Shown piece by piece: positions 4,424-26,295 of a DNA stretch of 26,549 nt. The DNA lies in IMG/VR virus record IMGVR_UViG_3300034356_000191, positions 1 through 26,549 of that record; one strand, written 5' to 3'. The stretch comes from a virus. How positions within the stretch are numbered: the first letter of the stretch is position 1; each line of letters starts with the position of its first letter. The notes under the pieces were generated by a model. That model did not search any database, had not been told where the DNA came from, and saw only the letters and a list, made by a program, of their open reading frames with translations. The position numbers and the translations under genes were made by a program.

Positions 4424-6214
4424 TTAAATTCCAATAAAGGTCGCTACAGCAAAGCCATTAGCGCCACTTTTGTTGATGCGTAAGAAACCGCCGTTGTTGT
4501 CAAAGGTAAATGTCTGCGTGGCGTCTCCTGCAATCGTACCCATCAATGTTGCTGCCACGTCTGCGCCAGTCCCACCAGATCGTTTAATGGCAACTGTGTA
4601 AATCGCACAGAACGACTCACCAGCAAAAGACGAACCACGAATAATGCAAAGTGTGCCACCATTGTTTGCGCTGACTGGAATATTTGTGGTGACAGCCGTT
4701 GTACCACTACCGGGAAAAGTAAACGGTCCTCGGACTGAGTTGGTGCCGTTTGCGACTAAGTTTCCGGTAATCGTTGCGTCACCCGTGACAGAAGCATCAC
4801 CAGACGCAGCAAAACTCGTCGTTGTAATCCCAGTGCCAAAGTTTGCCGGGTCATCAGCGGACGATGGGATACCTGCGTTTGTCGAATAAACGCCATAATA
4901 GGCAACGATTTTTGCTGAACCTGAATTTTTGACAGTTAAGGCACAGTTGCCGCCAGCAATCAGACAGTTCGTAAACGTCAGGTTTGCGTTTGATGTGTTG
5001 TCAAAATCAATAAGCGCGTCTGTGGGAAACGCACCCGGATCAAAAATGCAGTTGTCTACATTCAAAACAACAGCGTCTATTCCACTCAAAAGCGATGTTT
5101 TGATGTAGCTTTTACAGTCGTTGTCCTCAAACCAGCAGTTACTGAATGTCGGGTAATAGACTCCGTCTGTGTATACAACAGACTCGTTGACGTTAATTTT
5201 CTCAAACACACAGGTATCAAAGATAACCTTGATGCCGGACGAAAACTCAACGGCATAGTCTACGTTTTCTACCCTTGCAAATTCGCAAGCAGAGAACTTG
5301 TTGATGTTTGTCGCACGCAACGGAGAAAACGAGCCGCGAGAGCGAACTGGTTGAAAGTTCAAACCCGCAGAGGCGTGAAAACCAAACATGGTGCGAGAAA
5401 CTTCGCAGGCAATCATGTTTGCATCAATGCCAAAACGAAGCCTTGAATTGAAAACACAGTCGTTAATTGTCCAATGTGCCAGATAGACGTTGGCTGCCGA
5501 TGCTGGTGGGATTGGCGTAAAAATGCCAGTACCCGTTCCGTCGGTAGTCGTAGAAAACTCGATGCCGTAAATCTGCGCGTCTTGTCCCAGAAAATCGCTG
5601 GTTACGCCAAATATCGCGTTGTCAGACGTTGCTTTAAGGATTGTTTTTCCCTTGACACCAATGACGCTAAAGTCCTGCTTTACAAAATCAATCATTGTAC
5701 CGATGAGGTATTCCCCGGCGGGAATGAACACTGACCCTGCGGCATCAATAGCGGCTTGAAAAGCTGCGCTGTCATCCGTCACCCCGTCACCCACAGCCCC
5801 AAAGTCCATGACGCTGACTGTCTGAGCCAGTTTGTCTTGTACCGTGTAGCCGCTAGTTACGGCACCTGCAAACGGTGGGTCGTATTCAACAAGGCTTGCG
5901 TTTGTTGCAATGCCTGTACCATTAATGCCGGTAATGTTGTCCCAAGTTGCAATCGTAACCTCGGTCGAGGTCTTCAACACAAACTTGTAATTTTGACCAG
6001 CGGTCACCCAAATTTCACCCGTTGCCACACGACCAGCAGAGTTTAGAACAATCGGATTAGTGTGCGCTGTTGCGCCACTGACACTCGTGTAAGTGGCTTG
6101 CGGTGTGGTGGTACCAGCCTCGTATGTGTACAGTTTTCCACCAGACAACGGGTTGCCGTTGTCGTCAAAAAATTGTTGACCGGCACCAGCCAGCGCAGAA
6201 AGGTTGACCGTCAT
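4424..6214 (-). CDS. Tailspike with pectate-lyase-like beta-helix
   Basis: A 596-aa protein. Residues 1-105 are a head-binding module of P22-tailspike type (FFDDNGNPLSGGKLYTYEAG, then PIVLNSAGRV and YKFVLKTS). At about 133-160 comes VMDFGAVGDGVTDDSAAFQA, the entry signature of Pectate_lyase_3 beta-helices. The next 300 residues have the short strand/turn rhythm of a right-handed parallel beta-helix. The last 100 residues are a Gly/Thr-rich beta domain that could trimerise the spike. The protein probably binds and cleaves or deacetylates surface polysaccharide. No catalytic residues can be fixed by eye. GGAG lies 6 nt before the ATG. Confidence 0.88.
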   Translation of the reverse strand: MTVNLSALAGAGQQFFDDNGNPLSGGKLYTYEAGTTTPQATYTSVSGATAHTNPIVLNSAGRVATGEIWVTAGQNYKFVLKTSTEVTIATWDNITGINGTGIATNASLVEYDPPFAGAVTSGYTVQDKLAQTVSVMDFGAVGDGVTDDSAAFQAAIDAAGSVFIPAGEYLIGTMIDFVKQDFSVIGVKGKTILKATSDNAIFGVTSDFLGQDAQIYGIEFSTTTDGTGTGIFTPIPPASAANVYLAHWTINDCVFNSRLRFGIDANMIACEVSRTMFGFHASAGLNFQPVRSRGSFSPLRATNINKFSACEFARVENVDYAVEFSSGIKVIFDTCVFEKINVNESVVYTDGVYYPTFSNCWFEDNDCKSYIKTSLLSGIDAVVLNVDNCIFDPGAFPTDALIDFDNTSNANLTFTNCLIAGGNCALTVKNSGSAKIVAYYGVYSTNAGIPSSADDPANFGTGITTTSFAASGDASVTGDATITGNLVANGTNSVRGPFTFPGSGTTAVTTNIPVSANNGGTLCIIRGSSFAGESFCAIYTVAIKRSGGTGADVAATLMGTIAGDATQTFTFDNNGGFLRINKSGANGFAVATFIGI

Positions 6215-6217
6215 GTC

Positions 6218-6376
6218 TTACTCCAGCAAAATAAAACCGCCGTCCTCTTGCACGAGGTTTGCGCCGGACTCGGTGAGAAGGTTGCTCTGTGCCTGTTCGC
6301 TGCCGCGACCGCCGAACAGCGAAATAATGCCACCCAGTCCAATGCCAACAGCGTTGCGAACAGCAAGGAAGCTCAT
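6218..6376 (-). CDS. Small hydrophobic protein of unknown function
   Basis: A 52-aa protein starting MSFLAVRNAVGIGLGGIISL. I place the start at 6376 because this ATG overlaps the TGA of the upstream gene (ATGA). A longer frame starting at 6442 would run deep inside that gene. The first 25 residues are hydrophobic and Gly-rich, so a membrane or packing helix is possible. The remainder is polar with an acidic end (EDGGFILLE). It sits 3 nt before the tailspike. Function unknown. Confidence 0.6.
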   Translation of the reverse strand: MSFLAVRNAVGIGLGGIISLFGGRGSEQAQSNLLTESGANLVQEDGGFILLE

Positions 6377-7048: not shown

Positions 7049-9233
7049 TCATGTCTCCTTGGGGTGGCATCATCTCGGGCATCATCTCAGGCTGCATTTC
7101 GGGCATCTGACGCTGCTCATTCATCATGACCATATTGTCGTTGCTTTCCATCGCAGCCGCCACAACACCCATAGCGATGTCTTGAATCTGCTGCTCAGTC
7201 ATACCAGCCTGCACGGCGCTGATACGCTTAGTCTCAGCATCAAATGCTTTGATCTGGTTGGCCTGTTCCTTGATTTCCAAGTCACGGACTTCCATGCTCT
7301 GGTTGACGTTTTGCAACATCTGGAACATGTTCTCCATCTCAGCCTGCATGGCCTGCATCTGCTGGTTGGCAGCGGCCAAGGCTGGATCATCTTCGTCGGC
7401 CAGCACTTTGGGGTCGATGGTTTTCTTGAACCGCTTGGCAAGGTCTTGGGCGCCGGGCCAGTCCATGTTCTTGACAAACAGGTCGCCAGCGACTTGCCAC
7501 AACTGTGGGTTGCCTTGCAGCAACTGGGCCATGCTCTCCAAAGCCTCTTGACGCTTGGTGGCGTAGCCAGGACCGGTAATCACGCGCACATCGTACTTGC
7601 CAACGCCGGGGTTGTAGATCTTCTCGATCAACGTACCCTCTTGGTCCACGATGCGCTTGACTGGTTCCTCTTGCATTGGGTTCATCCTGACGGTCGATGG
7701 CTCACCATCTTCACCAATGATGCGGGCAATGCGCTCAGTGTCGTAAATCTTGGGGATCAGATCCACGAGTTGACGACCAATGTGACGGATCGCACGGGCC
7801 AGGTTGTCAACGTAGTGGTAGGTGCCGATGTCGCCTTCGCGCTGACGGGCCAAGATGGCTTTGCCGCTACGCTCGTTGCTGGTCATGCCCAGCGATGCGT
7901 TGTACTGGCCGGTGGCCGACTTGATGTCCTCGGCAGCACCCGCCTTGGCTTGCAGCAGGCCGCTGGAGGCCATTGGAGGTTGTGCCCGCTGGGGTAGTGG
8001 CAACACAGCGCCTTGACCGTCTGTAACGTCTGGATTGACCTCCAGATAGGGCCAGTTGTTCGTGTTGGCAGTCTTCCACTGCTGCTCGTAGCCTTCAAAC
8101 TGGCCGCCGTACCCGATGAACGGGGCTTTGGGGGCCAGCGCCAGCATCTCAGCTTCCTGCGACACCCAGTAGTTGTACATGCGCTGGGCATCCTTGGCGT
8201 TGCGCACCAAGCCCGACACGTACATCTGGCCGTCAACCTCAAACTCGTTACCGACCACGCGCACCACGGGGATGTAGGAGCCAGCCCAATCGCGTTCTTC
8301 AAGGATGTCGTAGCCGTTGATCTTGCACCACTTGACCTTTTTGCGGTCAGCTTCGCGGGTGCGGATCGGCTTGCCGAACATCTCACGCAGCATCTTGTCC
8401 TCGGGCGTACCGCTAAACGCAGTCTGGTTACCGGGGTACAGGTTGAGCGTGTGCTTTTCGTACTCGATGTAGAAGTACTCGGCGATGCGGATGGTGTTCT
8501 CACCGATCCACTGGGCGATGGACTGATCGCCCACGCCAAGGCTCATGAGGGTGCTGATAGGCGCTGCATCGGGGTACAAACGCTCATACTCATCTTTGGG
8601 GATGTCTTCCGTGATGAAGCACCAGCGGGCATCTGCGCCTGCGGGGTCTTGGATCAAGGGGTCCATGTAGACGCTGAAGCTGTTGCGGATGCGCCCAATC
8701 TTGATGTCTTGATCGAACGACTTGTCGTCGCAATACTCGGTCAAGACCCGGATGTAGCCTTCGCCGTAGGACACTTGGTTCTCGCAGGCGGTGTCGTAGG
8801 CCACGTCAGCATCGGAGATGTACTCAATGTGGCGAATCACGCCGTTGAACACGTCTGCCATGTCCACATCGGCCTTGTCGTCAGCCGGGATCACCTTGAT
8901 GCCGGGACGGTTCATGCGCTGCTCGTTCGTCACTTGGTGAACGTGCTGCGGCAGCTTGTTGATGGTTAGGCAGGGGCGGGCGTTGATCGTTTGGCCCTGC
9001 AAAGAGCCACGGGTCTGGAGCACATCAGCGGGCCACTGCCACTGGTTGTCTGGAGAGCCAGCGTAGAACCGCAAATCGTCGAGTTCGTCTTCCCGAGTCT
9101 CGGAAAACGCAGTCATCGCTGTGTTCAAACGTGAACGGGCAACGGTCAGAATTTCCTCGGAACCGCCTTTTGACGAGTTTGGTCCGTTTTTTGCCACATT
9201 TGCTGCGGCTACGATTCCGGTGGTGTCTTTCAT
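7035..9233 (-). CDS. Portal protein, P22-like
   Basis: A 732-aa protein that should form the dodecameric ring at the packaging vertex. Length matches P22 gp1 (725 aa). Recognisable parts are DELDDLRFYAGSPDNQW near residue 50, PCLTINKLPQHVHQVTNEQR near 90-105, SYGEGYIRV near 155 and SVYMDPLIQDPAGADARW near 185. The C-terminal part (about 620-732) is Gln/Met/Glu-rich and coiled-coil-like, consistent with the barrel region of P22 portal. The ATG overlaps the stop of the GroES-like gene (ATGA). The C-terminal barrel is shorter than P22's may be; otherwise nothing is odd. Confidence 0.93.
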   Translation of the reverse strand: MKDTTGIVAAANVAKNGPNSSKGGSEEILTVARSRLNTAMTAFSETREDELDDLRFYAGSPDNQWQWPADVLQTRGSLQGQTINARPCLTINKLPQHVHQVTNEQRMNRPGIKVIPADDKADVDMADVFNGVIRHIEYISDADVAYDTACENQVSYGEGYIRVLTEYCDDKSFDQDIKIGRIRNSFSVYMDPLIQDPAGADARWCFITEDIPKDEYERLYPDAAPISTLMSLGVGDQSIAQWIGENTIRIAEYFYIEYEKHTLNLYPGNQTAFSGTPEDKMLREMFGKPIRTREADRKKVKWCKINGYDILEERDWAGSYIPVVRVVGNEFEVDGQMYVSGLVRNAKDAQRMYNYWVSQEAEMLALAPKAPFIGYGGQFEGYEQQWKTANTNNWPYLEVNPDVTDGQGAVLPLPQRAQPPMASSGLLQAKAGAAEDIKSATGQYNASLGMTSNERSGKAILARQREGDIGTYHYVDNLARAIRHIGRQLVDLIPKIYDTERIARIIGEDGEPSTVRMNPMQEEPVKRIVDQEGTLIEKIYNPGVGKYDVRVITGPGYATKRQEALESMAQLLQGNPQLWQVAGDLFVKNMDWPGAQDLAKRFKKTIDPKVLADEDDPALAAANQQMQAMQAEMENMFQMLQNVNQSMEVRDLEIKEQANQIKAFDAETKRISAVQAGMTEQQIQDIAMGVVAAAMESNDNMVMMNEQRQMPEMQPEMMPEMMPPQGDMNEMR

Positions 9234-9478
9234 GCGTCAAATACTCCGAGGGTGTGTGATTCCCTCATGACCAGAAGGTTGTCACCCTCGTATTTTAGGT
9301 CTTGGCCGATGGAATCACCAAATAGCACTTTGTCGCCGACTTTCACGTCCTTGGCTTCAGGCCCAACGGAGATTACCACACCCGTGCCAGTTTGTTTCTG
9401 TCTCAAAAGGATAAACAACTCGTGTTTTTCCATGTCTGGACGCACGATCAGGCAGTCTTGCAGGGCTTGGAGGCTCAT
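9230..9478 (-). CDS. GroES-like co-chaperonin (Cpn10)
   Basis: An 82-aa protein with the Cpn10 pattern: N-terminal strand LQDCLIVRPD, then a loop segment with LFILL (position of the GroES mobile loop and its I-V-L tripeptide), then TGTGVVISVGP, VKVGDKVLFGDSIG and the C-terminal GDNLLVMRESHTLGVFDA. Bacterial GroES is about 97 aa, and this version is shortened in the mobile-loop/roof area. It should cap host GroEL, helping fold capsid or other phage proteins, as T4 gp31 does. Tight linkage to the portal and terminase genes fits this. The start overlaps the stop of the next upstream gene. Confidence 0.85.
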   Translation of the reverse strand: MSLQALQDCLIVRPDMEKHELFILLRQKQTGTGVVISVGPEAKDVKVGDKVLFGDSIGQDLKYEGDNLLVMRESHTLGVFDA

Positions 9479-11611: not shown

Positions 11612-11818
11612 ATGATTCTATCTCCAATTGTCAACACCGACATCAAGATGCCAAAGCAAATGCTTGACGCACTTGGCTTGCATGAAACCAGGTGCGTTGT
11701 CACCGGCGTAAGCGTTGTCACCGAAGAATCGGTGCGGGCATTCCTGTCTGCTCGGTACGGTGAAAAATTCGCCAGCAAATTTAACCCCAAATTCCTGTTC
11801 AGTATCCCAGGCGCTTGA
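11612..11818 (+). CDS. Small ORF of unknown function on the opposite strand
   Basis: A 68-aa frame (MILSPIVNTDIKMPKQMLDA ... FNPKFLFSIPGA) lying in the terL/470-aa-gene gap, reading against its neighbours and overlapping the end of the 470-aa gene by 20 nt. The composition looks protein-like (a helix near residues 12-22 and EESVRAFLSARYGEKFASKF at about 38-57). GGAG lies only 2 nt before the ATG, so translation from a leaderless message is the better fit. A competing minus-strand frame at 11584-11790 has a poorer composition. No family is recognised. It may be non-coding. Confidence 0.4.
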   Translation: MILSPIVNTDIKMPKQMLDALGLHETRCVVTGVSVVTEESVRAFLSARYGEKFASKFNPKFLFSIPGA

Positions 11819-13211
11819 GCAACTGGTTGGTGATGACTCCCGCGTAAGGGTGCATTTGCATCGCCCTTAAATCTGATGCCCTCGGATTTTTTGGGTCCGG
11901 TATGCCACGGCCTTGAACCACTTGCGGCAACAACTCAAACACATTGACATCTTCAGCCAAGGTGCCAATGCCCTGACCCGGCACCCCACCTGGGTACGCC
12001 GGATGCGTCGATCTCAACAACGGGCTTCCAGCAAAGATCTCACCCACGTTCATCACACCACCCTCTTGCGCAGCCAATTGCGCAGGGTCAGACACGGCCA
12101 ACCTTGCGCCACCAATGTTCAGACCTCCAGTATTGCGGAAATTGGTGTCCATCATATTTTTCACGGCCTTGCGCACCTTGTCTGGCGCATCGCGGAACTG
12201 CTGCACACTGGCCGGATCTGACACACCAGACCAATCAGGAATCATCTTCTTGATCGACTTGTCTAGGCTTCTCTTTTGAATTTTCCCCATCGCGCTGTCA
12301 GCATACGCCAACATCGTCTCACCCGTCATTTGCGCAAAATCACCACCAGTTGGCGCCATGCGATACGGCAAATACAAAGGATTCTGACCCGTTGCGCTCT
12401 TGACCTCTTCCGCATACTTCATCAAAGCCTTGGCCGGCCCTTGTCCAGATGCCCACACCTGACCAGGATTGCTGAACATGTAGTCCTGACCGCCACGCAA
12501 CTCCACCGGCCTGTTAAACCGCACATCATTGATGCCCACCAACTTACCACCAGCAGCCGTCCTGTCAGCCATGCTCGTGATAAACGGCCTGCCCTCAAAA
12601 TCAGCCAGTGAAACAGCCGGTGCATTCGCCGCACCAGGATTCAACTGAATGTCCCGAGTCATGCCACGCAAACGCTCTTGCTCCAACACCCTCGGGTCAT
12701 ACCTCGGGTCAAATGCACCAAACCCACTGCGGCCAGATGGCGGCACAGCAAAGTTCACAGGCGATGGCGCAAACGCAGCCGGCACGCCAGGTATCGTTGA
12801 CTGCCCAGACATCATGCGTGCAGCCAACTCCTCGCCAGCCATACGGCCACCAGCCATCGCAGCCCTGCGTGCCTGCCTTGCCGCCTCCAGCGTCGCCATC
12901 GTCACCGGTTGCGCCAGTGGTGCTACGGCCATTGCCGCCTCAATTGCCTCTGGCCTGATCTGGGTGGTCATCCCTCTGCCAGTGGTCAGTGGCTCACCAT
13001 AGGACAGCCGGTCCAGCGTCTGACTCACCGCTGGCAGTGACAAGAACTGCGCCATGCCCTGCATCTGCTGCGTGCGCTGCGGTGCGTAAGACGCAGCCGC
13101 CAAATCAGCCAAGTACCCAAGCACCTGGTTGCGCGGGGTCGCACTCATGGTGTCTTGGTACGCCAGCCTGTTGGCTGGACGCTGGGCTAAAGCGTTTTGG
13201 TAGATCGGCAT
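11799..13211 (-). CDS. Phage protein of unknown function, 470 aa
   Basis: Ala/Pro/Gly/Met-rich protein with many helices: Gln/Ala-rich residues 35-70, an Ala/Met/Arg-rich helix at about 85-135, and conserved-looking text later (GQDYMFSNPGQVWASGQGPA, then ALMKYAEEV, then GGDFAQMTGETMLAYA). The C-terminal part ends HPYAGVITNQLLKRLGY. Composition and place beside terminase recall internal or ejected virion proteins, or polyvalent proteins, but I cannot name the family. There is no ribosome site before the ATG at 13211; a run of seven C precedes it on this strand. An alternative start at 13148 also lacks one. Confidence 0.7.
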   Translation of the reverse strand: MPIYQNALAQRPANRLAYQDTMSATPRNQVLGYLADLAAASYAPQRTQQMQGMAQFLSLPAVSQTLDRLSYGEPLTTGRGMTTQIRPEAIEAAMAVAPLAQPVTMATLEAARQARRAAMAGGRMAGEELAARMMSGQSTIPGVPAAFAPSPVNFAVPPSGRSGFGAFDPRYDPRVLEQERLRGMTRDIQLNPGAANAPAVSLADFEGRPFITSMADRTAAGGKLVGINDVRFNRPVELRGGQDYMFSNPGQVWASGQGPAKALMKYAEEVKSATGQNPLYLPYRMAPTGGDFAQMTGETMLAYADSAMGKIQKRSLDKSIKKMIPDWSGVSDPASVQQFRDAPDKVRKAVKNMMDTNFRNTGGLNIGGARLAVSDPAQLAAQEGGVMNVGEIFAGSPLLRSTHPAYPGGVPGQGIGTLAEDVNVFELLPQVVQGRGIPDPKNPRASDLRAMQMHPYAGVITNQLLKRLGY

Positions 13212-13220
13212 GGGGGGGAT

Positions 13221-13260
13221 GTTAATTGATTTTTAAAAAAACAAAAAATTAAAAAATGTT
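13221..13260. other. AT-rich tract, possible DNA unwinding element
   Basis: Almost entirely A and T, with homopolymer runs of A and T (GATTTTTAAAAAAACAAAAA within it). It lies about 80 bp from the DnaA-box cluster. A-tracts may also bend the DNA. It is the only long stretch of this kind in the window. Confidence 0.5.
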
Positions 13261-13289
13261 CGTGGGGGTACCGTCACCGTGACCCTTCG

Positions 13290-13323
13290 CCGCCGGCCCT
13301 CCCCCCCCCGCCCTTGCCGGCGG
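13290..13323. repeat. GC-rich inverted repeat around a C10 tract
   Basis: Arms CCGCCGGC (13290-13297) and GCCGGCGG (13316-13323) are perfect. The 18-nt loop contains ten consecutive C. On the other strand this is a G10 run that could stack or pause a polymerase. It lacks a T-run, so it is not a standard terminator. Confidence 0.55.
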
Positions 13324-13339
13324 GACGGCCAGCCACGGG

Positions 13340-13428
13340 TTGTCCACAGGGTTTTTGCGCGGGTTATCCACACCAGCCTGTGGATAACTAGGAATGTAGG
13401 CAGTCGGTGTTAATTTTTCTGTGGATAA
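13340..13428. other. Cluster of four DnaA boxes
   Basis: Boxes: TTGTCCACA at 13340-13348 (one mismatch), TTATCCACA at 13364-13372 (perfect), and the reverse complement TGTGGATAA at 13379-13387 and 13420-13428 (both perfect). The first two and the last two point toward each other. Spacings are 24, 15 and 41 bp. Three perfect 9-mers within 65 bp is very unlikely by chance, and no gene explains them. Confidence 0.7.
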
Positions 13429-13481
13429 CTTGGCATCGACTTTACATAATGGACGTTGTATGAAGTAGACGTACGTTTTTG

Positions 13482-13497
13482 TCAGGGTTAACCCTGA
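13482..13497. repeat. Perfect 16-bp palindrome
   Basis: TCAGGGTTAACCCTGA is its own reverse complement over all 16 bases. It lies between the DnaA boxes and the TGCGTA repeats in the origin-like region. It may be a binding site for a dimeric protein. Confidence 0.6.
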
Positions 13498-13546
13498 TGC
13501 GTAGCCGGTTGGGCGCGTGTGCGTAACTGTACAAAATCTATGCGTA
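13498..13546. repeat. Three TGCGTA direct repeats at two-turn spacing
   Basis: TGCGTA occurs at 13498, 13520 and 13541, spaced 22 and 21 bp, about two helical turns, so all copies face the same side. The last copy is part of an inverted repeat ATGCG-TAAAG-CGCAT (13540-13554). Short iterons of this kind are seen at replication origins. Here it is suggestive only. Confidence 0.4.
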
Positions 13547-13613
13547 AAGCGCATAACCCTGCCCCTAACAACACCTAATCCAGCCAAACCCCAACCGATT
13601 ACCTCACCAAATG

Positions 13614-14129
13614 TCACGAATCGACAGCCTTACTCTCCACATCCACAACATTGCTTTCATCCTTGAGAACACGCTGCTTTGCTTCTTTGAGCGCATCCAT
13701 GACGCTAATGCGGGTGTCGGTCACGGCAACGTCGATGCGATCACCATATCGTTTGGCGTACAGCTTTGACGCTACCCACTTGCGTGCGTCCACTTGCATA
13801 CGTTTTTGCTGAACCCAAGCAGACGCCATTGGTCCTTCCAAGTGTGCTGGCATCTCTTCATCGGACAACTCGATGATCTCTTCAGCCAGTCGATCAGCAC
13901 GGCTTTCGGTTGCTCGTTCGTACATGGCGCGGAACTCTGGATTGTTCCGAATCATGAGCATGGCGCATTGGTAGCTGGGCATACCAGGCTGCTTGAGGGT
14001 GCTGGTGATGCTTTTACCAGTTGAGATCTGTTTGCATATCTCAGCCCAGATTGGGTGCTCAATCGGATACAGCATTGGCCTGCCTGGACGATTCTTCACT
14101 GTCATTTCTGACGCCAAGTTTTCAGTCAC
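13614..14129 (-). CDS. terS: Terminase small subunit, Sf6-like
   Basis: A 171-aa DNA-recognition subunit. It has the Sf6-type pattern: an N-terminal helix-turn-helix region with ICKQISTGKSITSTLKQPGM and PSYQCAMLMIRNNPEFRAMY, then RATESRADRLAEEIIELSDE, then MQVDARKWVASKLYAKRYGD at about 110-130. The C-terminus is charged. It starts with GTG at 14129 (AGGAG seven bases upstream supports it). The stop lies at the edge of the origin-like region. It is separated from terL by that region and a 470-aa gene, whereas in most phages the two are adjacent. Confidence 0.85.
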   Translation of the reverse strand: MTENLASEMTVKNRPGRPMLYPIEHPIWAEICKQISTGKSITSTLKQPGMPSYQCAMLMIRNNPEFRAMYERATESRADRLAEEIIELSDEEMPAHLEGPMASAWVQQKRMQVDARKWVASKLYAKRYGDRIDVAVTDTRISVMDALKEAKQRVLKDESNVVDVESKAVDS

Positions 14130-14215: not shown

Positions 14216-14550
14216 GCTATCACCTCAATCTCAACCTTGTAAGTCTTAACCGTACCCGGTCGCTGCCTATACTGCCATTCAACCAACTGGCTGCCATCAT
14301 CAATGCCAAGCCAGTCAGCCACCCCATCACGCACAGCCTTAAATCCAGATTGCAGATTATCCCCATCCAAAGCCCTAGGAGCCACTCTGGTGAGCACAAT
14401 CGTGCAAGGTGGGGCCGGAGGTGCAGCAACACTTGCCAGCGCGTTAAACGCCTTCTGGCGCTGACTCTTCACCAACTTCGCCTTCACTGCCCAGTGCATC
14501 CTCATGTTCGCCATGCTGACCACCTTCATGTCCATTTCAACTTCAATCAT
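14212..14550 (-). CDS. RusA-like Holliday-junction resolvase
   Basis: A 112-aa protein of RusA size (about 120 aa). The key block LDGDNLQSGFKAVRDGVADW (residues 61-80) contains D62 and D64, followed by GIDDGSQLVEWQ with D84/D85. In E. coli RusA the catalytic Asp are D70, D72 and D91, with similar spacing. A basic N-terminal half (KAKLVKSQRQK) fits DNA binding. It should cut branched replication or recombination intermediates before packaging, matching its place next to TerS. AAGGGG lies 6-7 nt before the ATG. Confidence 0.82.
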   Translation of the reverse strand: MIEVEMDMKVVSMANMRMHWAVKAKLVKSQRQKAFNALASVAAPPAPPCTIVLTRVAPRALDGDNLQSGFKAVRDGVADWLGIDDGSQLVEWQYRQRPGTVKTYKVEIEVIA

Positions 14551-14842
14551 TCCAACCCCTTAAAAACCCAAATCCCATGTACCGAAGGTTCGACCCGACT
14601 TTGTGTACCGAACCGAAGGGGGTATATATACCCCTTCGGTACGTTTCGGTACAACGGGCAAGTCGGGCATCGGTACGTTTCGGTACGTTTCGGTACATCG
14701 GTACATGGTTTCGGTACACTTGGACTGTACCGAACGAACCGAAATCGGTACAGATCGGTACGGTTCGGTACATTTCACCCTCAAAATAATTGCCGTTTCG
14801 GTACATCGGTACATCAATTCTGGCTGTTTCTGGCATGGTCAT
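14543..14842 (-). CDS. Doubtful ORF across the CGGTAC repeat array
   Basis: A 99-codon frame fits neatly between the primase-helicase stop (3-nt gap) and the RusA start (8-nt overlap), as for a real operon gene. However its residues follow the DNA repeat (MYRN, YRNVPKRT, CTETYRR occur because GTACCGAAAC repeats), and there is no ribosome site close to the ATG. I consider it more likely that the DNA repeat is what is selected here. If translated, the product would be a basic repetitive peptide. Confidence 0.25.
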   Translation of the reverse strand: MTMPETARIDVPMYRNGNYFEGEMYRTVPICTDFGSFGTVQVYRNHVPMYRNVPKRTDARLARCTETYRRGIYTPFGSVHKVGSNLRYMGFGFLRGWND

Positions 14843-14888
14843 TGCTTAAATTGCCTCAGAATTTGGTGCCTTCGGTACGGTTCGGTAC
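14579..14888. repeat. Array of 17 CGGTAC motifs (iteron-like)
   Basis: CGGTAC or its complement occurs at 14579(-), 14605(-), 14637, 14647, 14671, 14681, 14691, 14699, 14712, 14727(-), 14746, 14756, 14766, 14799, 14807, 14873 and 14883. The extended unit is (T/A)TCGGTAC(A/G). Runs at exact 10-bp spacing (14637/14647; 14671/81/91; 14746/56/66; 14873/83) put copies on one face of the helix. The last two lie inside the end of the primase-helicase gene. Three of the copies are inverted. It resembles a binding array for a replication initiator. Confidence 0.8.
14612..14640. repeat. Inverted repeat with TATA-rich centre
   Basis: Arms ACCGAAGGGG (14612-14621) and CCCCTTCGGT (14631-14640) are perfectly complementary over 10 bp around GTATATATA. 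It lies inside the CGGTAC array. It could form a cruciform or be an easily melted point with protein sites on both sides. Confidence 0.65.
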
Positions 14889-16891
14889 ACGTCATTGCGC
14901 ACGTTGACCATATCCTTTTTAGTCAAACCCTCAACCGATTCTTTGAATCTTCTGGAGTTCAGCCCGTGGCTCTTGGCAGATTCCCGCCACTCATCGTAGT
15001 TCGCTGACACGGCCATACCGTCCAAGCCATCAGCCTGCTTCTTGACCTCAATGGCGACAAGGCAGTTAAGTGCAATCAACTGGTTACCTGGCAAGATGGT
15101 CCGCTTTTGCACACTGCTGACCAGCCCAGAGATGTCCACGCTGGTGAGGTACGCACCCTTGACTGCATTGCCGTGCTTGTCGAGGATGGGCAGATCCACT
15201 TGGGTAATCTGGAAGTTCTTGGCCGCTGGCATCTCTGCGTCCTTCATCTTCTTGGACTCAAACTGGATGGTTTTGGTGCCCGAATCCAACTGGCACTTGT
15301 ACTCCGCATCCAGTGCGCCTTTCAGGGCTGTGCTGCCCCTGCTTCTGTCCTTGTCCATCGCCCCACTGTGATGGACCACCAGCACGCAGCACTTGTAATC
15401 TTGGCGCAGATACGTGTCCAAGTGCTGAATAAAGCTGTTCATGTCTTGGGTTGAGTTCTCATCCCCGCCCATGTTCCGAGCCAAGGTATCGATCACGATC
15501 ATGGACGGGATGTGCCCACACTCTGCCGACAAGGTTTTGATGGAGTCAGCCACTAGAGCAGCCTCTGTTGCGTCATACAGTTGCGCTGCCCTGTGGCTTT
15601 TGAACAACGGTGCCCCGTCCAATGTGGCCCCATTGCCCAACTCCCAACCCTTAAAGCGCCGAGCCAGTCCGTTGTGGCCTTCGCCGGCAATGTAGAACAC
15701 TGCCCCTTGCTGCACTTGGTGACCGTGCCAATCCTTGCCGGTTGCCACGCAGCAGGCCAAGTCAATGCTCACAAATGACTTTCCCCCACCTGGATCACCG
15801 AACACCTGCGCCAGCGAATCTGCCTCAATGTAATCATCGACCACCCACTTGATCTCGCTGAGAGTCAAGGCATCTGCTCTCGTGAACTCAAACGCCAGCT
15901 TGTCACGCACAGGCCCAGCCACGCGCTCGATTTGTTCTTTCACGGCATCCAGTCCTTGCAGGCAGTGCAGGTCATTCCAGTCTGTTGGCTTGTTGTCCAC
16001 CATGTCAGCATCCCCGAATGATGGATACACAATCTCGCCAAACACCATCGCTGCCGCTGCTCGGCCCTTGGTCACACCAGGGTTGCCCTCAGTGAACTGG
16101 TCATTGTCAGCGCCGATCACAATCTTGGAGCCGGGGAACATCTCTTTGGCTGCCTTGGCTACCTTGGACAGGTTGCCACAGTCAAACGCCACCATGACGG
16201 TGTACCCCGTAGCCTCATGAATACTGGCACAAGTGGCAAAGCCCTCACCCACGAACACAATCTTACGATTGCCGCGCAACTCAAAGAAACCACCCTCAAT
16301 CTTGCCACCCTTGAGAAACCGTTTGTTGCCTTCTGCGTCAATGGTCTGGTACGACAAGATCTCACCAGACTGGTTGATCACTGGCACCACCAACCGGCCA
16401 GCACGGTCAATCTTGATGCCATGTGCGCTGATGTGTTTCCTCACTAGGTAGGGATGATCATCGCTGGCATCAGCATAGGTGCCGACCTCATCCTCTGCAC
16501 GCTCTGCTGCCACTGCTTGGCTGGCAAGTCTCTCAGCATCCTTTTTGGCTTTTAGGTCTGCTACCCACTTGTCATGTTCAAACCTCTCGGTGAACGACAT
16601 GGTGCGGCCAATGTCAGCCACCCACTTGGCCTCAAACGTAGGCTCTTTCCAGCAGCCGGCAATGCCCACTGGCACCTTGCCACTGGTGTGCAAGATGTAC
16701 CACCCGTCAAGTGACCCCTTCTTGCTTGACACATGAGGCACCCTATGGATCTCGCCATCGGCAATCAGGTCTTTGATCAGCAGGCCACTAGCCTCACAGT
16801 GAGTCCTGAACGCAGCTTCAGGGTTGATCAGGTCTTGGCTTTCTGTTGCTGCCGCAAAGCCATTGGGGAAAATAGATGTAAGGCTGCTCAT
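14846..16891 (-). CDS. Toprim / RepA-like primase-helicase
   Basis: A 681-aa replication protein. Residues about 140-205 lead into a Toprim domain: VFVGEGFATC (E216), VIGADNDQ (D262, D264) and DWND (304-307). Then comes a RecA-fold, RepA/AAA_25-type ATPase: Walker A GDPGGGKS at 365-372, Walker B IVIDTLARN with D468, then CVLVVHHSG and SRGSTALKGA. This pairs primer synthesis and unwinding in one protein. I chose ATG 16891, which overlaps the HTH gene stop (ATGA), over one 17 codons earlier inside that gene. The C-terminal codons carry two copies of the CGGTAC repeat. Confidence 0.88.
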   Translation of the reverse strand: MSSLTSIFPNGFAAATESQDLINPEAAFRTHCEASGLLIKDLIADGEIHRVPHVSSKKGSLDGWYILHTSGKVPVGIAGCWKEPTFEAKWVADIGRTMSFTERFEHDKWVADLKAKKDAERLASQAVAAERAEDEVGTYADASDDHPYLVRKHISAHGIKIDRAGRLVVPVINQSGEILSYQTIDAEGNKRFLKGGKIEGGFFELRGNRKIVFVGEGFATCASIHEATGYTVMVAFDCGNLSKVAKAAKEMFPGSKIVIGADNDQFTEGNPGVTKGRAAAAMVFGEIVYPSFGDADMVDNKPTDWNDLHCLQGLDAVKEQIERVAGPVRDKLAFEFTRADALTLSEIKWVVDDYIEADSLAQVFGDPGGGKSFVSIDLACCVATGKDWHGHQVQQGAVFYIAGEGHNGLARRFKGWELGNGATLDGAPLFKSHRAAQLYDATEAALVADSIKTLSAECGHIPSMIVIDTLARNMGGDENSTQDMNSFIQHLDTYLRQDYKCCVLVVHHSGAMDKDRSRGSTALKGALDAEYKCQLDSGTKTIQFESKKMKDAEMPAAKNFQITQVDLPILDKHGNAVKGAYLTSVDISGLVSSVQKRTILPGNQLIALNCLVAIEVKKQADGLDGMAVSANYDEWRESAKSHGLNSRRFKESVEGLTKKDMVNVRNDVYRTVPKAPNSEAI

Positions 16892-17106
16892 GCCCGAGCC
16901 TCCACCAGTTCTGGCCAGATGGACTGCCAACTGCCTTGGCACACCATCTTGCGCCCCAACCGGCCACCTGTCTCTTGTTCTACCCTCACAGCCTCAGAGG
17001 CCGACATCTCTCTGCGGCCAGTCAGGCACTGGTAGAGATACTGTTCATTGATGCCAACTTTTTCTGCCAGTTGTCGGCGCTCGTCTGGTGTGATTTGTGT
17101 GTTCAT
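16888..17106 (-). CDS. Cro/YdaS-like helix-turn-helix regulator
   Basis: A 72-aa DNA-binding protein. Residues 7-40 give the HTH: DERRQLAEKVGINEQYLYQC, then LTGRREMSASEAVRVEQETG. The end, CQGSWQSIWPELVEA, is typical of YdaS/Cro-type phage repressors. It begins the leftward replication operon and sits beside three copies of the CTAGC-N5-GCTAG dyad, the likely operators. There is no Shine-Dalgarno before the ATG. A minus-strand -10 TAGACT ends 9 nt upstream, so the mRNA may be nearly leaderless, like cI from PRM in lambda. It is the only regulator seen. Confidence 0.82.
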   Translation of the reverse strand: MNTQITPDERRQLAEKVGINEQYLYQCLTGRREMSASEAVRVEQETGGRLGRKMVCQGSWQSIWPELVEARA

Positions 17107-17689: not shown

Positions 17690-17697
17690 GGCAAACC

Positions 17698-17841
17698 ATG
17701 AAACACCACAAATACCACTACCACCCACAAGTCAAAGCAGCCAAGTTGCACGCACGCGCAGAGGCTGCGCTTGACTTGGTGCTGGCCCTCGCCATTGGCA
17801 TTGGCTTGGCCGTTCTGCTTGTTGCTTGGTGGTCGTCATGA
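17698..17841 (+). CDS. Small single-span membrane protein with His/Tyr-rich start
   Basis: A 47-aa gene. Residues 2-9 are His/Lys/Tyr (MKHHKYHYHP), 10-24 are basic, and 25-45 form one transmembrane helix (LVLALAIGIGLAVLLVAWW). GAGG lies 7 nt before the ATG, and its TGA overlaps the next ATG (ATGA). A cytoplasmic basic N-terminus and a membrane anchor fit an inner-membrane peptide. Early membrane peptides of phages sometimes act in superinfection exclusion, but nothing here proves it. Confidence 0.6.
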   Translation: MKHHKYHYHPQVKAAKLHARAEAALDLVLALAIGIGLAVLLVAWWSS

Positions 17842-17948
17842 AAACCATTTGGATCAAACCAAAAACGCTGACACGTTGCCAAATTCTTGGCGTGTGTCAA
17901 TCAAAGCAAGCGCCATCTTGTGCCATGCAATGCCGGAGGTCATCATGA
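17838..17948 (+). CDS. Cys-containing micro-protein, 36 aa
   Basis: Frame of 36 codons starting MKTIWIKPKTLTRCQILGVC and ending QCRRSS. It overlaps the genes on both sides by 4 nt (ATGA). Four Cys (residues 14, 20, 28, 32) could bind zinc. It is short but the overlap chain suggests it is translated. Confidence 0.45.
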   Translation: MKTIWIKPKTLTRCQILGVCQSKQAPSCAMQCRRSS

Positions 17949-23692: not shown

Positions 23693-23808
23693 ACCAATGT
23701 AAACACCGCTGGATACTGACCCCAGTGCCAGACCGCAACCACTACCGTTACCAATGCGCCAAGTGCAACGAAACGGCATGGGCCATGCTGAAGGGGAAGA
23801 CTGAATGA
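23689..23808 (+). CDS. Zinc-ribbon micro-protein (39 aa)
   Basis: This 39-codon gene starts at ATG 23689 in the previous stop (ATGA) and ends in the next start (ATGA). The product, MNQCKHRWILTPVPDRNHYR, continues with YQCAKCNETAWAMLKGKTE. C4 and H6 together with C28-x2-C31 form a credible zinc-binding set. Similar tiny Cys-rich proteins are common in early phage regions. Confidence 0.65.
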   Translation: MNQCKHRWILTPVPDRNHYRYQCAKCNETAWAMLKGKTE

Positions 23809-24449
23809 GCTACATCATTGCATCGCTGCCACCACTCAAGTGCTTTGTGCGCCGCGAGTTCTTGTACAACCACACCAAAGGCTTTGGCGAGTTGGAGCCT
23901 GCCATCTGGGTCAGCATCAAGGCGCTGCGCGGCCAAGTGTTCCGCATCGAGTCGCTGCTGCCCAACTACGGCGCTCTGTACGACAAGTTGCCCTTACACG
24001 CTTACGTGTGGCGTGAGGACTACGATGCCACTGAAGACGGTGACCTGCCCATTGACGCCCTGCAACTGTGGGATTGCATGGGCTACCGCTTCACTGTCTG
24101 CGAGAAGATTGGCCTGCGCAACCTCGGGGTCAAGTTCTTGGGCAAGGACAAGCAGTGGCACCACGGGCGCTACCTGTTCACTGTGGACTTCTGCGCTGAC
24201 GGCCAGGATCTCGACACAGGGTTTACCGAGCAGGCTGAGGAGCACAAGAGCTTCAACTTCATCCAACTGGAGAACGGCCAGTTCGCCTGTCAGCCCAACA
24301 ACCGGTGCCTCTGGTACGACCAGAGCCTGATCCCTGCGGAGGTGAAGTTCCCTGACTTCCATGCTGCCAAAACATTCTGGACCGTAGACGGCACACGCAA
24401 GTGGTCCGCGGGCGACGATTGGTTTTACGACATCCAAGAGCGCACATGA
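23805..24449 (+). CDS. Early protein of unknown function (214 aa)
   Basis: A 214-aa protein starting MSYIIASLPPLKCFVRREFL. It is rich in aromatic residues, with segments LEPAIWVSIKALRGQVFRIE, then YGALYDKLPLHAYVWRED, then LQLWDCMGYRFTV, then NNRCLWYDQSLIPAEVKFPD. It seems a mixed alpha/beta, probably globular cytoplasmic protein. Phages from fresh and sea water carry similar uncharacterised proteins in early regions. I see no catalytic motif that I trust. Start and stop overlap neighbours by 4 nt. Confidence 0.75.
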   Translation: MSYIIASLPPLKCFVRREFLYNHTKGFGELEPAIWVSIKALRGQVFRIESLLPNYGALYDKLPLHAYVWREDYDATEDGDLPIDALQLWDCMGYRFTVCEKIGLRNLGVKFLGKDKQWHHGRYLFTVDFCADGQDLDTGFTEQAEEHKSFNFIQLENGQFACQPNNRCLWYDQSLIPAEVKFPDFHAAKTFWTVDGTRKWSAGDDWFYDIQERT

Positions 24450-25839: not shown

Positions 25840-26295
25840 TTACCCCTTTAGGTCAAAACTTAGGTTTGGATGGCGGGGATACTGAACCACTCGCTCGCCC
25901 TCTGGGCATTTGTATTTAATCGTCGCCAGCAAAGTGGCCCTGCCATCAGCGATCTTTTCTTTTTGCACCATCGTAAGCTGGTACGTGAAGGTGTCAATTT
26001 CTGGCCCTGCTGGGCCGCTAAACTTGCTGGCCGTGGTAGTCGCTGCATGGACCATGCCCGCAGCATCTCGAATGCTTGGGGTAAAACTTTCAACAGAGCA
26101 ATCGTCGCGCTTTTTGATCCGCGCAACGGTGACGTTAATTGGCTCACCGGCCTGCGCCACGATCTTGAAGTTCTCAGGAGACCATTCGATGATGGCCCTG
26201 TCAAGCCAACCAAATTTGTCGGCCAGCGTGTAACTGCCGCCTAGCGCGGCAACGCTTGCGGCAACTGCTCCGATGGCCTTGGTAAGGTCAACCAT
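25840..26295 (-). CDS. Membrane-anchored protein of the lysis cassette, unknown
   Basis: A 151-aa protein with one N-terminal hydrophobic segment (about 6-24, AIGAVAASVAALGGSYTLA) and then a beta-rich domain (PINVTVARI, IDTFTYQLTMVQ, ATLLATIKYKCPEG). Two Cys (about 69 and 132) might form a disulphide in the periplasm. This type II membrane layout and the position between two lysis-type genes suggest a spanin-like or lysis-control role, but it has no typical i-spanin coiled coil. It lies 2 nt upstream of the holin. Confidence 0.65.
   Translation of the reverse strand: MVDLTKAIGAVAASVAALGGSYTLADKFGWLDRAIIEWSPENFKIVAQAGEPINVTVARIKKRDDCSVESFTPSIRDAAGMVHAATTTASKFSGPAGPEIDTFTYQLTMVQKEKIADGRATLLATIKYKCPEGERVVQYPRHPNLSFDLKG

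Follow-up and report, generated by a model that had tools for sequence, protein, structure and literature searches.

A Conserved DnaA-Box Cassette of Uncultured P22-Like Podoviruses as a Possible Half of a Two-Part Replication Origin

The Locus and Its Surroundings

The window (the whole stretch of DNA that was analysed, 26,549 bases long and recorded in IMG/VR) is part of a P22-like podovirus, with a terminase small subunit (TerS) of the Sf6 type, TerL, a P22-type portal, and a coat protein. Between TerS (13614–14129, minus strand) and a gene for a protein of 470 amino acids, to which no family was assigned, lies a gap of 402 bp which contains a cluster of DnaA boxes and an AT-rich tract. The gene for the 470 amino acids protein is missing from many relatives, in which TerL is located directly next to the gap. 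At 11799–13211 it forms an optional insert in the interval between TerS and TerL, has a 67% relative elsewhere in the phage G036 (27376–28638), and seems to be mobile. The features discussed below are the following.

13222–13261, no strand: AT-rich tract, candidate duplex-unwinding element (DUE), least stable 40-mer of the window
13340–13348, plus strand: DnaA box 4, TTGTCCACA, by sequence match and conservation
13341–13468, minus strand: stretch alignable with a second phage lineage, about 76% over 130 bp, neighbour genes unrelated
13354–13362, plus strand: slot of box 3b, which most relatives have 10 bp after box 3 and the window has lost
13364–13372, plus strand: DnaA box 3, TTATCCACA, inverted relative to box 2 and 15 bp on
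13379–13387, minus strand: DnaA box 2, TTATCCACA, 41 bp from box 1
13420–13428, minus strand: DnaA box 1, TTATCCACA, by sequence match and conservation
13436–13451, minus strand: conserved element CATTATGTAAAGTCGA, at a fixed 7 bp from box 1, candidate binding element
13538–13556, minus strand: terminator-like hairpin after TerS, one half of it a TGCGTA repeat
13614–14129, minus strand: TerS, Sf6 type, by protein family match
14579–14888, no strand: array of 17 TCGGTAC iterons, in groups, spacing mostly 8–13 bp
14846–16942, minus strand: primase-helicase with Toprim, AAA_25 (RepA-like), and C-terminal winged helix, by domain matches and predicted structure
14879–15088, minus strand: C-terminal winged helix, residues about 619–688, proposed iteron reader, by structure prediction
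14951–14959, minus strand: codons for Asn-Ser-Arg, residues 662–664, start of the recognition helix; the tripeptide tracks the iteron sequence

The DnaA Boxes and Their Conservation

The original prediction, made from the letters of the window, had pointed to three perfect DnaA boxes and one near match, and these are indeed present: three copies of TTATCCACA at 13364 (plus), 13379 (minus), and 13420 (minus) and one TTGTCCACA, the actinobacterial form of the box, at 13340 (plus), all four within 89 bp (13340–13428). The three perfect boxes, which lie within 65 bp, are far above chance expectation. Simulated windows contained a mean of 0.10 perfect boxes, three in 100 bp were encountered in 0 of 300 simulations, and an analytic estimate for the cluster yields about 1e-8. 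Perfect boxes are scarce in the near-complete relatives, and where the full cluster is present they fall inside it. The AT-rich tract near the boxes (13222–13261) was likewise recovered, and so was the lack of a credible gene: the sole open reading frame spanning the boxes (13249–13617, with a GTG start) is closed early in most relatives, on which ground a hidden gene was rejected. A palindrome of 16 bp (TCAGGGTTAACCCTGA, 13482–13497) and three TGCGTA repeats (13498, 13520, and 13541) do exist as described, but they are poorly conserved, being found in 11 and 2 of 68 relatives, respectively, and were discarded as functional parts for lack of conservation.

To gather relatives independently of the boxes, phages were selected by protein similarity of TerS alone (n=80). 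In 79 of these the same gap contains at least two boxes with at most one mismatch each; the single exception, L063, is explained by a contig end which cuts the locus. The exact spacing of 41, 15, and 24 bp is retained in 45 of 66 distinct gaps, the full geometry in these being CATTATGTWAAGTYGA, 7 bp, box 1, and then boxes at +41, +56, and +80. It is partly lost or shifted in the other 21 distinct modules, where two boxes 38 bp apart often remain. Box set and adjoining easily melted DNA together occupy a stretch of 230 bp.

Substitutions within the boxes of the 66 distinct modules occur mainly at positions 3 and 5 (121 of 156), where true DnaA sites would be expected to vary, and box columns are better conserved than spacers (0.82 versus 0.60). 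As compared to the DnaA consensus TTWTNCACA (PMC5835720), the common change from A to G at position 3 falls outside, and the remaining pattern agrees. A larger set of 115 modules, biased because it was partly collected with the box pattern itself, agrees with these results. Comparative sequence evidence strongly supports the boxes as genuine DnaA sites under selection. A phage-encoded DnaA domain IV was searched for in eleven relatives and not found, which makes the host protein the likely binder.

Three further candidates were rejected. An RNA hairpin joining boxes 2 and 3 is not under pairing constraint, as 68 of the 115 modules have a mismatch at position 3; a GC-rich hairpin in the interval separating box 4 from the AT tract was no better than shuffles; and the likeness of the CATTATGT element to a Fis site, with one mismatch to the published consensus, concerns a motif too degenerate to count.

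The AT-Rich Tract

Duplex stability was calculated by the nearest-neighbour method for 40-mers. The AT tract of the window ranked first, and in eight of ten other genomes a tract offset by +158 to +191 relative to box 1 did so too. The remaining two are G034, where it ranks third, and G018, where the site of rank 1 lies close to the module, on the opposite side of a match with a weak score. Rank 1 was also found in 63 of 85 loci of clade A and 16 of 27 loci of clade B, and the contig L233 has no AT tract at the usual offset from the boxes. These ranks strongly support the AT tract as the DNA of lowest stability. About 70–100 bp of GC-rich DNA separate it from the last box, and in the window it abuts the next start codon. 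The cumulative GC skew, which had been proposed as a check, could be calculated but proved uninformative for origin position: its extremes vary among relatives and do not lie consistently at the boxes, and it was rejected as an origin marker.

Distribution of the Cassette

Two lineages of phages whose genes are unrelated also carry the cassette. Phages of the second lineage were retrieved by a pattern scan for the cassette, and their TerL is 26–31% identical to that of the window phage. One of them, G033, has a primase of the PriCT_2 type in place of Toprim and a TerS which is about 26% identical, and still carries the cassette. Sequences of the second lineage diverge directly past the AT tract. 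L233 carries the cassette in reverse orientation, between a tandem-repeat array and TerS and beside a PrimPol-type helicase, and this TerS has no family match. Conversely, the cassette is absent (best score at most 31 of 52) from phages whose TerL is 81–84% identical but which have another block of primase-helicase and TerS, and nearly all phages with the block of the window carry it. The cassette therefore follows the replication/TerS block and not TerL; within the main clade TerS and the replication genes are inseparable.

The phages of the second lineage are mosaics; a small number of other genes and a further non-coding stretch are common to them and the window lineage, which suggests a common host pool. 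A stretch of about 150 bp where the rightward early genes begin (17693–17843) is 75–78% identical to G033 6075–6225 and G036 25928–26077 and is a second regulatory stretch common to the window phage and the divergent lineage.

A copy of a host oriC was rejected as an explanation. Only eight matches were found in 84,980 species genomes, from Cytophagaceae, Acholeplasmatales, and Chloroflexi metagenome-assembled genomes, and these are box-dense DNA without the CATTATGT element. A search for the module in plasmids and isolated phages gave no real match, and the literature searched, which left out most subscription journals, contained no description of such a cassette.

Iterons and the Primase-Helicase

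A second candidate for an origin lies 1.2 kb from the boxes. The array of TCGGTAC iterons sits after the primase-helicase gene, between it and TerS, and an array occupies this position in all relatives that could be examined, with the core switching as a whole. Six cores occur, GTACCGA, GCACCGA, AACCGAA, ATCCGAA, ATCCGGA, and GTCCGGA. They are tracked by the tripeptide with which the recognition helix begins in the C-terminal winged helix of the primase-helicase, a predicted fold with a local pLDDT above 90: NSR/NAR/NPR, DYR, KSN, KNN/ANN, ANN, and ARN, with ANN paired with both ATCCGA and ATCCGG. Iteron class and tripeptide correspond in 215 of 215 scorable loci, two of 217 arrays being unclassed. 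On a tree built from the helicase body without the winged-helix domain, about 15 changes of class are seen, and six of six independent pairs on supported branches agree. That iterons and winged helix change together is therefore strongly supported at the level of sequence. As the helix codons adjoin the array, both may be exchanged as one piece by a single recombination, which leaves the co-variation strong yet inconclusive evidence for recognition of the iterons by this domain.

Repeats after the primase were also observed in isolated marine phages with related Toprim-AAA_25 proteins, namely, CGGTACA (eight copies) in Idiomarinaceae phage 1N2-2, TGAACCA (eight) in Alteromonas phage PB15, and GCTGGAA (seven) in Roseobacter phage CRP-406, none of which has a DnaA-box cluster. 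Iterons without boxes in these isolates suggest that the iterons are probably the core replicator, general to the Toprim-AAA_25 helicase type, and that the DnaA cassette with its DUE is probably an opening step added in freshwater lineages.

Some details of this region may be mentioned. In phage 1N2-2 (L398, 34001–34600) the CGGTACA core is the same as in the window, yet the C-terminal domain looks unrelated. An open reading frame of 99 amino acids (14543–14842, minus) consists mostly of iteron repeats (MYRNVP, YRTVP) and is probably a by-product of the array, not a gene. A small Cro/YdaS-like regulator gene (16888–17106) overlaps the start of the primase-helicase, a pairing which recurs in phages of Alteromonas, Idiomarina, and Salicola.

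A Proposed Two-Part Origin and Its Alternatives

Conservation, substitution pattern, and the rank of the DUE make a DnaA-binding, origin-like cassette well supported. The more specific proposal is that of a two-part replication origin of the phage, of which the cassette, with host DnaA bound and a duplex-unwinding element of its own, would be one half; it is judged to have about an even chance of being right. Host DnaA would bind the four to five fixed boxes and help to open the AT tract at 13222–13261, while the primase-helicase would bind the iterons 1.2 kb off via its C-terminal winged helix and so be brought to the origin region. DnaA binding in the cell, melting, initiation at this place, and communication between the two sites are inferred. 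Against the proposal stand the distance of 1.2 kb with genes between boxes and iterons, the related isolates which replicate with iterons and no box cluster, and a geometry partly lost or shifted in about a third of the distinct relatives. The scattered GC-skew extremes, the 70–100 bp of GC-rich DNA ahead of the AT tract, L233 with no such tract at the usual offset, and the possible joint exchange of winged helix and array also count against it. Of the originally suggested DnaA-dependent origin, then, the identity of the boxes and the origin-like cassette stand, but a dependence on DnaA stays hypothetical in view of the isolates, and the prediction had overlooked the stronger replicator candidate, the iterons which co-vary with the primase-helicase.

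If the two-part origin is real, an abundant group of uncultured freshwater phages joins host DnaA with a self-recruiting primase-helicase. That lineages so different in their genes carry the same cassette hints at a host factor common to them, and the code of six classes, with one tripeptide for each, that links iterons and winged helix is testable and could predict origins in phages with the Toprim-AAA_25 helicase type.

The iteron array alone might instead be the origin read by the primase-helicase, with DnaA on the cassette serving as transcription factor for a promoter of TerL and later genes. This is suggested by the isolated phages with post-primase iterons and no boxes, by the terminator-like hairpin which would stop TerS transcription just ahead of the cassette, so that genes beyond require a promoter, and by the AT tract touching the next start codon in the window. 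It is nevertheless unlikely, as a scan of the gap found no promoter on the late strand and sites no more numerous than in shuffles, the second lineage diverges immediately past the AT tract, L233 has the cassette reversed on the opposite side of TerS, and a promoter has no need of a rank-1 melting site.

The cassette could also alter the nucleotide state of host DnaA in the manner of the reactivating DARS or the inactivating datA of E. coli, tuning host initiation or the phage's supply of ATP-DnaA. Boxes 2, 3, and 3b form a head-to-head pair and a tandem third box at fixed spacing, as in the core of E. coli DARS1 and DARS2 and of the ColE1 DARS, and 70 of 115 modules show this topology (box I opposite II and III). 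The boxes of E. coli DARS1 and of the DARS2 region are placed at 0>, 14<, 26< and those of ColE1-type origins at 0>, 14<, whereas the phage boxes are placed at 0>, 15<, 25<, that is, 15/25 instead of 14/26 bp. The phage cassette moreover has extra boxes, the CATTATGT element, and a linked AT tract, the DUE being no feature of DARS; the window is devoid of box 3b; and box 3, half of the head-to-head pair, is lost in about a third of lineages. The topology is alike, but the spacings depart from those of DARS, and a function of this kind is quite improbable. A combined version, in which a phage-borne element of DARS topology recharges or reprograms host DnaA in the course of infection and passes ATP-DnaA to the unwinding tract, coupled to the iteron-finding primase-helicase, is a long shot.

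According to a review, DnaA of E. coli is titrated when good boxes are clustered on DNA present in many copies, and numerous phage copies might act as a decoy which absorbs DnaA and halts host initiation; fixed spacing, linked AT tract, and CATTATGT element are all unneeded for this and a tie to the replication block is not expected, which renders it very improbable. Scarcely credible is a packaging (pac/cos) site bound by the adjoining TerS with accidental likeness to DnaA boxes, since the cassette, albeit always beside TerS and missing where the TerS type differs, has identical boxes next to a TerS just 26% alike or, in L233, without family match, and its substitutions follow the DnaA-box pattern.

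Comparison with Known Systems

The elements of the proposed two-part origin are familiar from plasmids. In RK2, DnaA boxes, iterons, and an AT-rich unwinding element are laid out together (PMC4980987). As in RK2 oriV, P1 oriR, and F oriS, the phage has boxes, iterons for a winged-helix initiator, and an AT-rich unwinding element. It differs from these origins in that 1.2 kb separate boxes and AT tract from the iterons, that the primase-helicase itself seems to read the iterons, and that the replicon, a phage, has no partition genes. The three elements are not contiguous in either the window or the second lineage, the 1.2 kb applying to both, and boxes and repeats are adjacent only in L233.

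The alpha protein of the phage/satellite P4 unites primase, helicase, and a C-terminal iteron-binding domain and acts on two separated cis sites, ori and crr. In the window, a single protein with Toprim, AAA_25, and winged helix likewise combines primase and helicase with a DNA-binding domain at its C terminus; this protein, however, is of the Toprim and RepA-like AAA_25 type, and the second site consists of DnaA boxes, not iterons. Bacterial oriC and the cassette share DnaA boxes of consensus type close to the DNA of lowest stability, but the cassette has fewer boxes, a head-to-head pair, no dnaA gene nearby, and GC-rich DNA that separates the boxes from the AT tract, and the tract lies farther from the last box (about 70–100 bp) than in E. 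coli.

Further Observations on the Phage Genomes

A phage-plasmid state, which had been considered along with the origin, is unsupported: genes for partition, plasmid maintenance, and integration were not found in ten near-complete relatives, integrase, ParA, and resolvase being searched for as PF00589, PF13614, and PF00239. All phages with the cassette are known only as metagenomic contigs. Several relatives form circles of about 37 kb, with overlaps of 55–181 bp and differing break points. One contig of 39,996 bp (L214 and L219), linear according to IMG/VR, contains the box cassette in two copies 36.3 kb apart, which shows that the assembly is terminally redundant and the genome 36.3 kb long. 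In the window, a short open reading frame for a GroES-like co-chaperonin (9230–9478), recognised by eye and by an annotated equivalent in DSL-LC05, adjoins the portal gene, and the early region encodes at 23805–24449 a protein matching PHROG 3704, labelled ferredoxin, with an E value of 2.7e-73.
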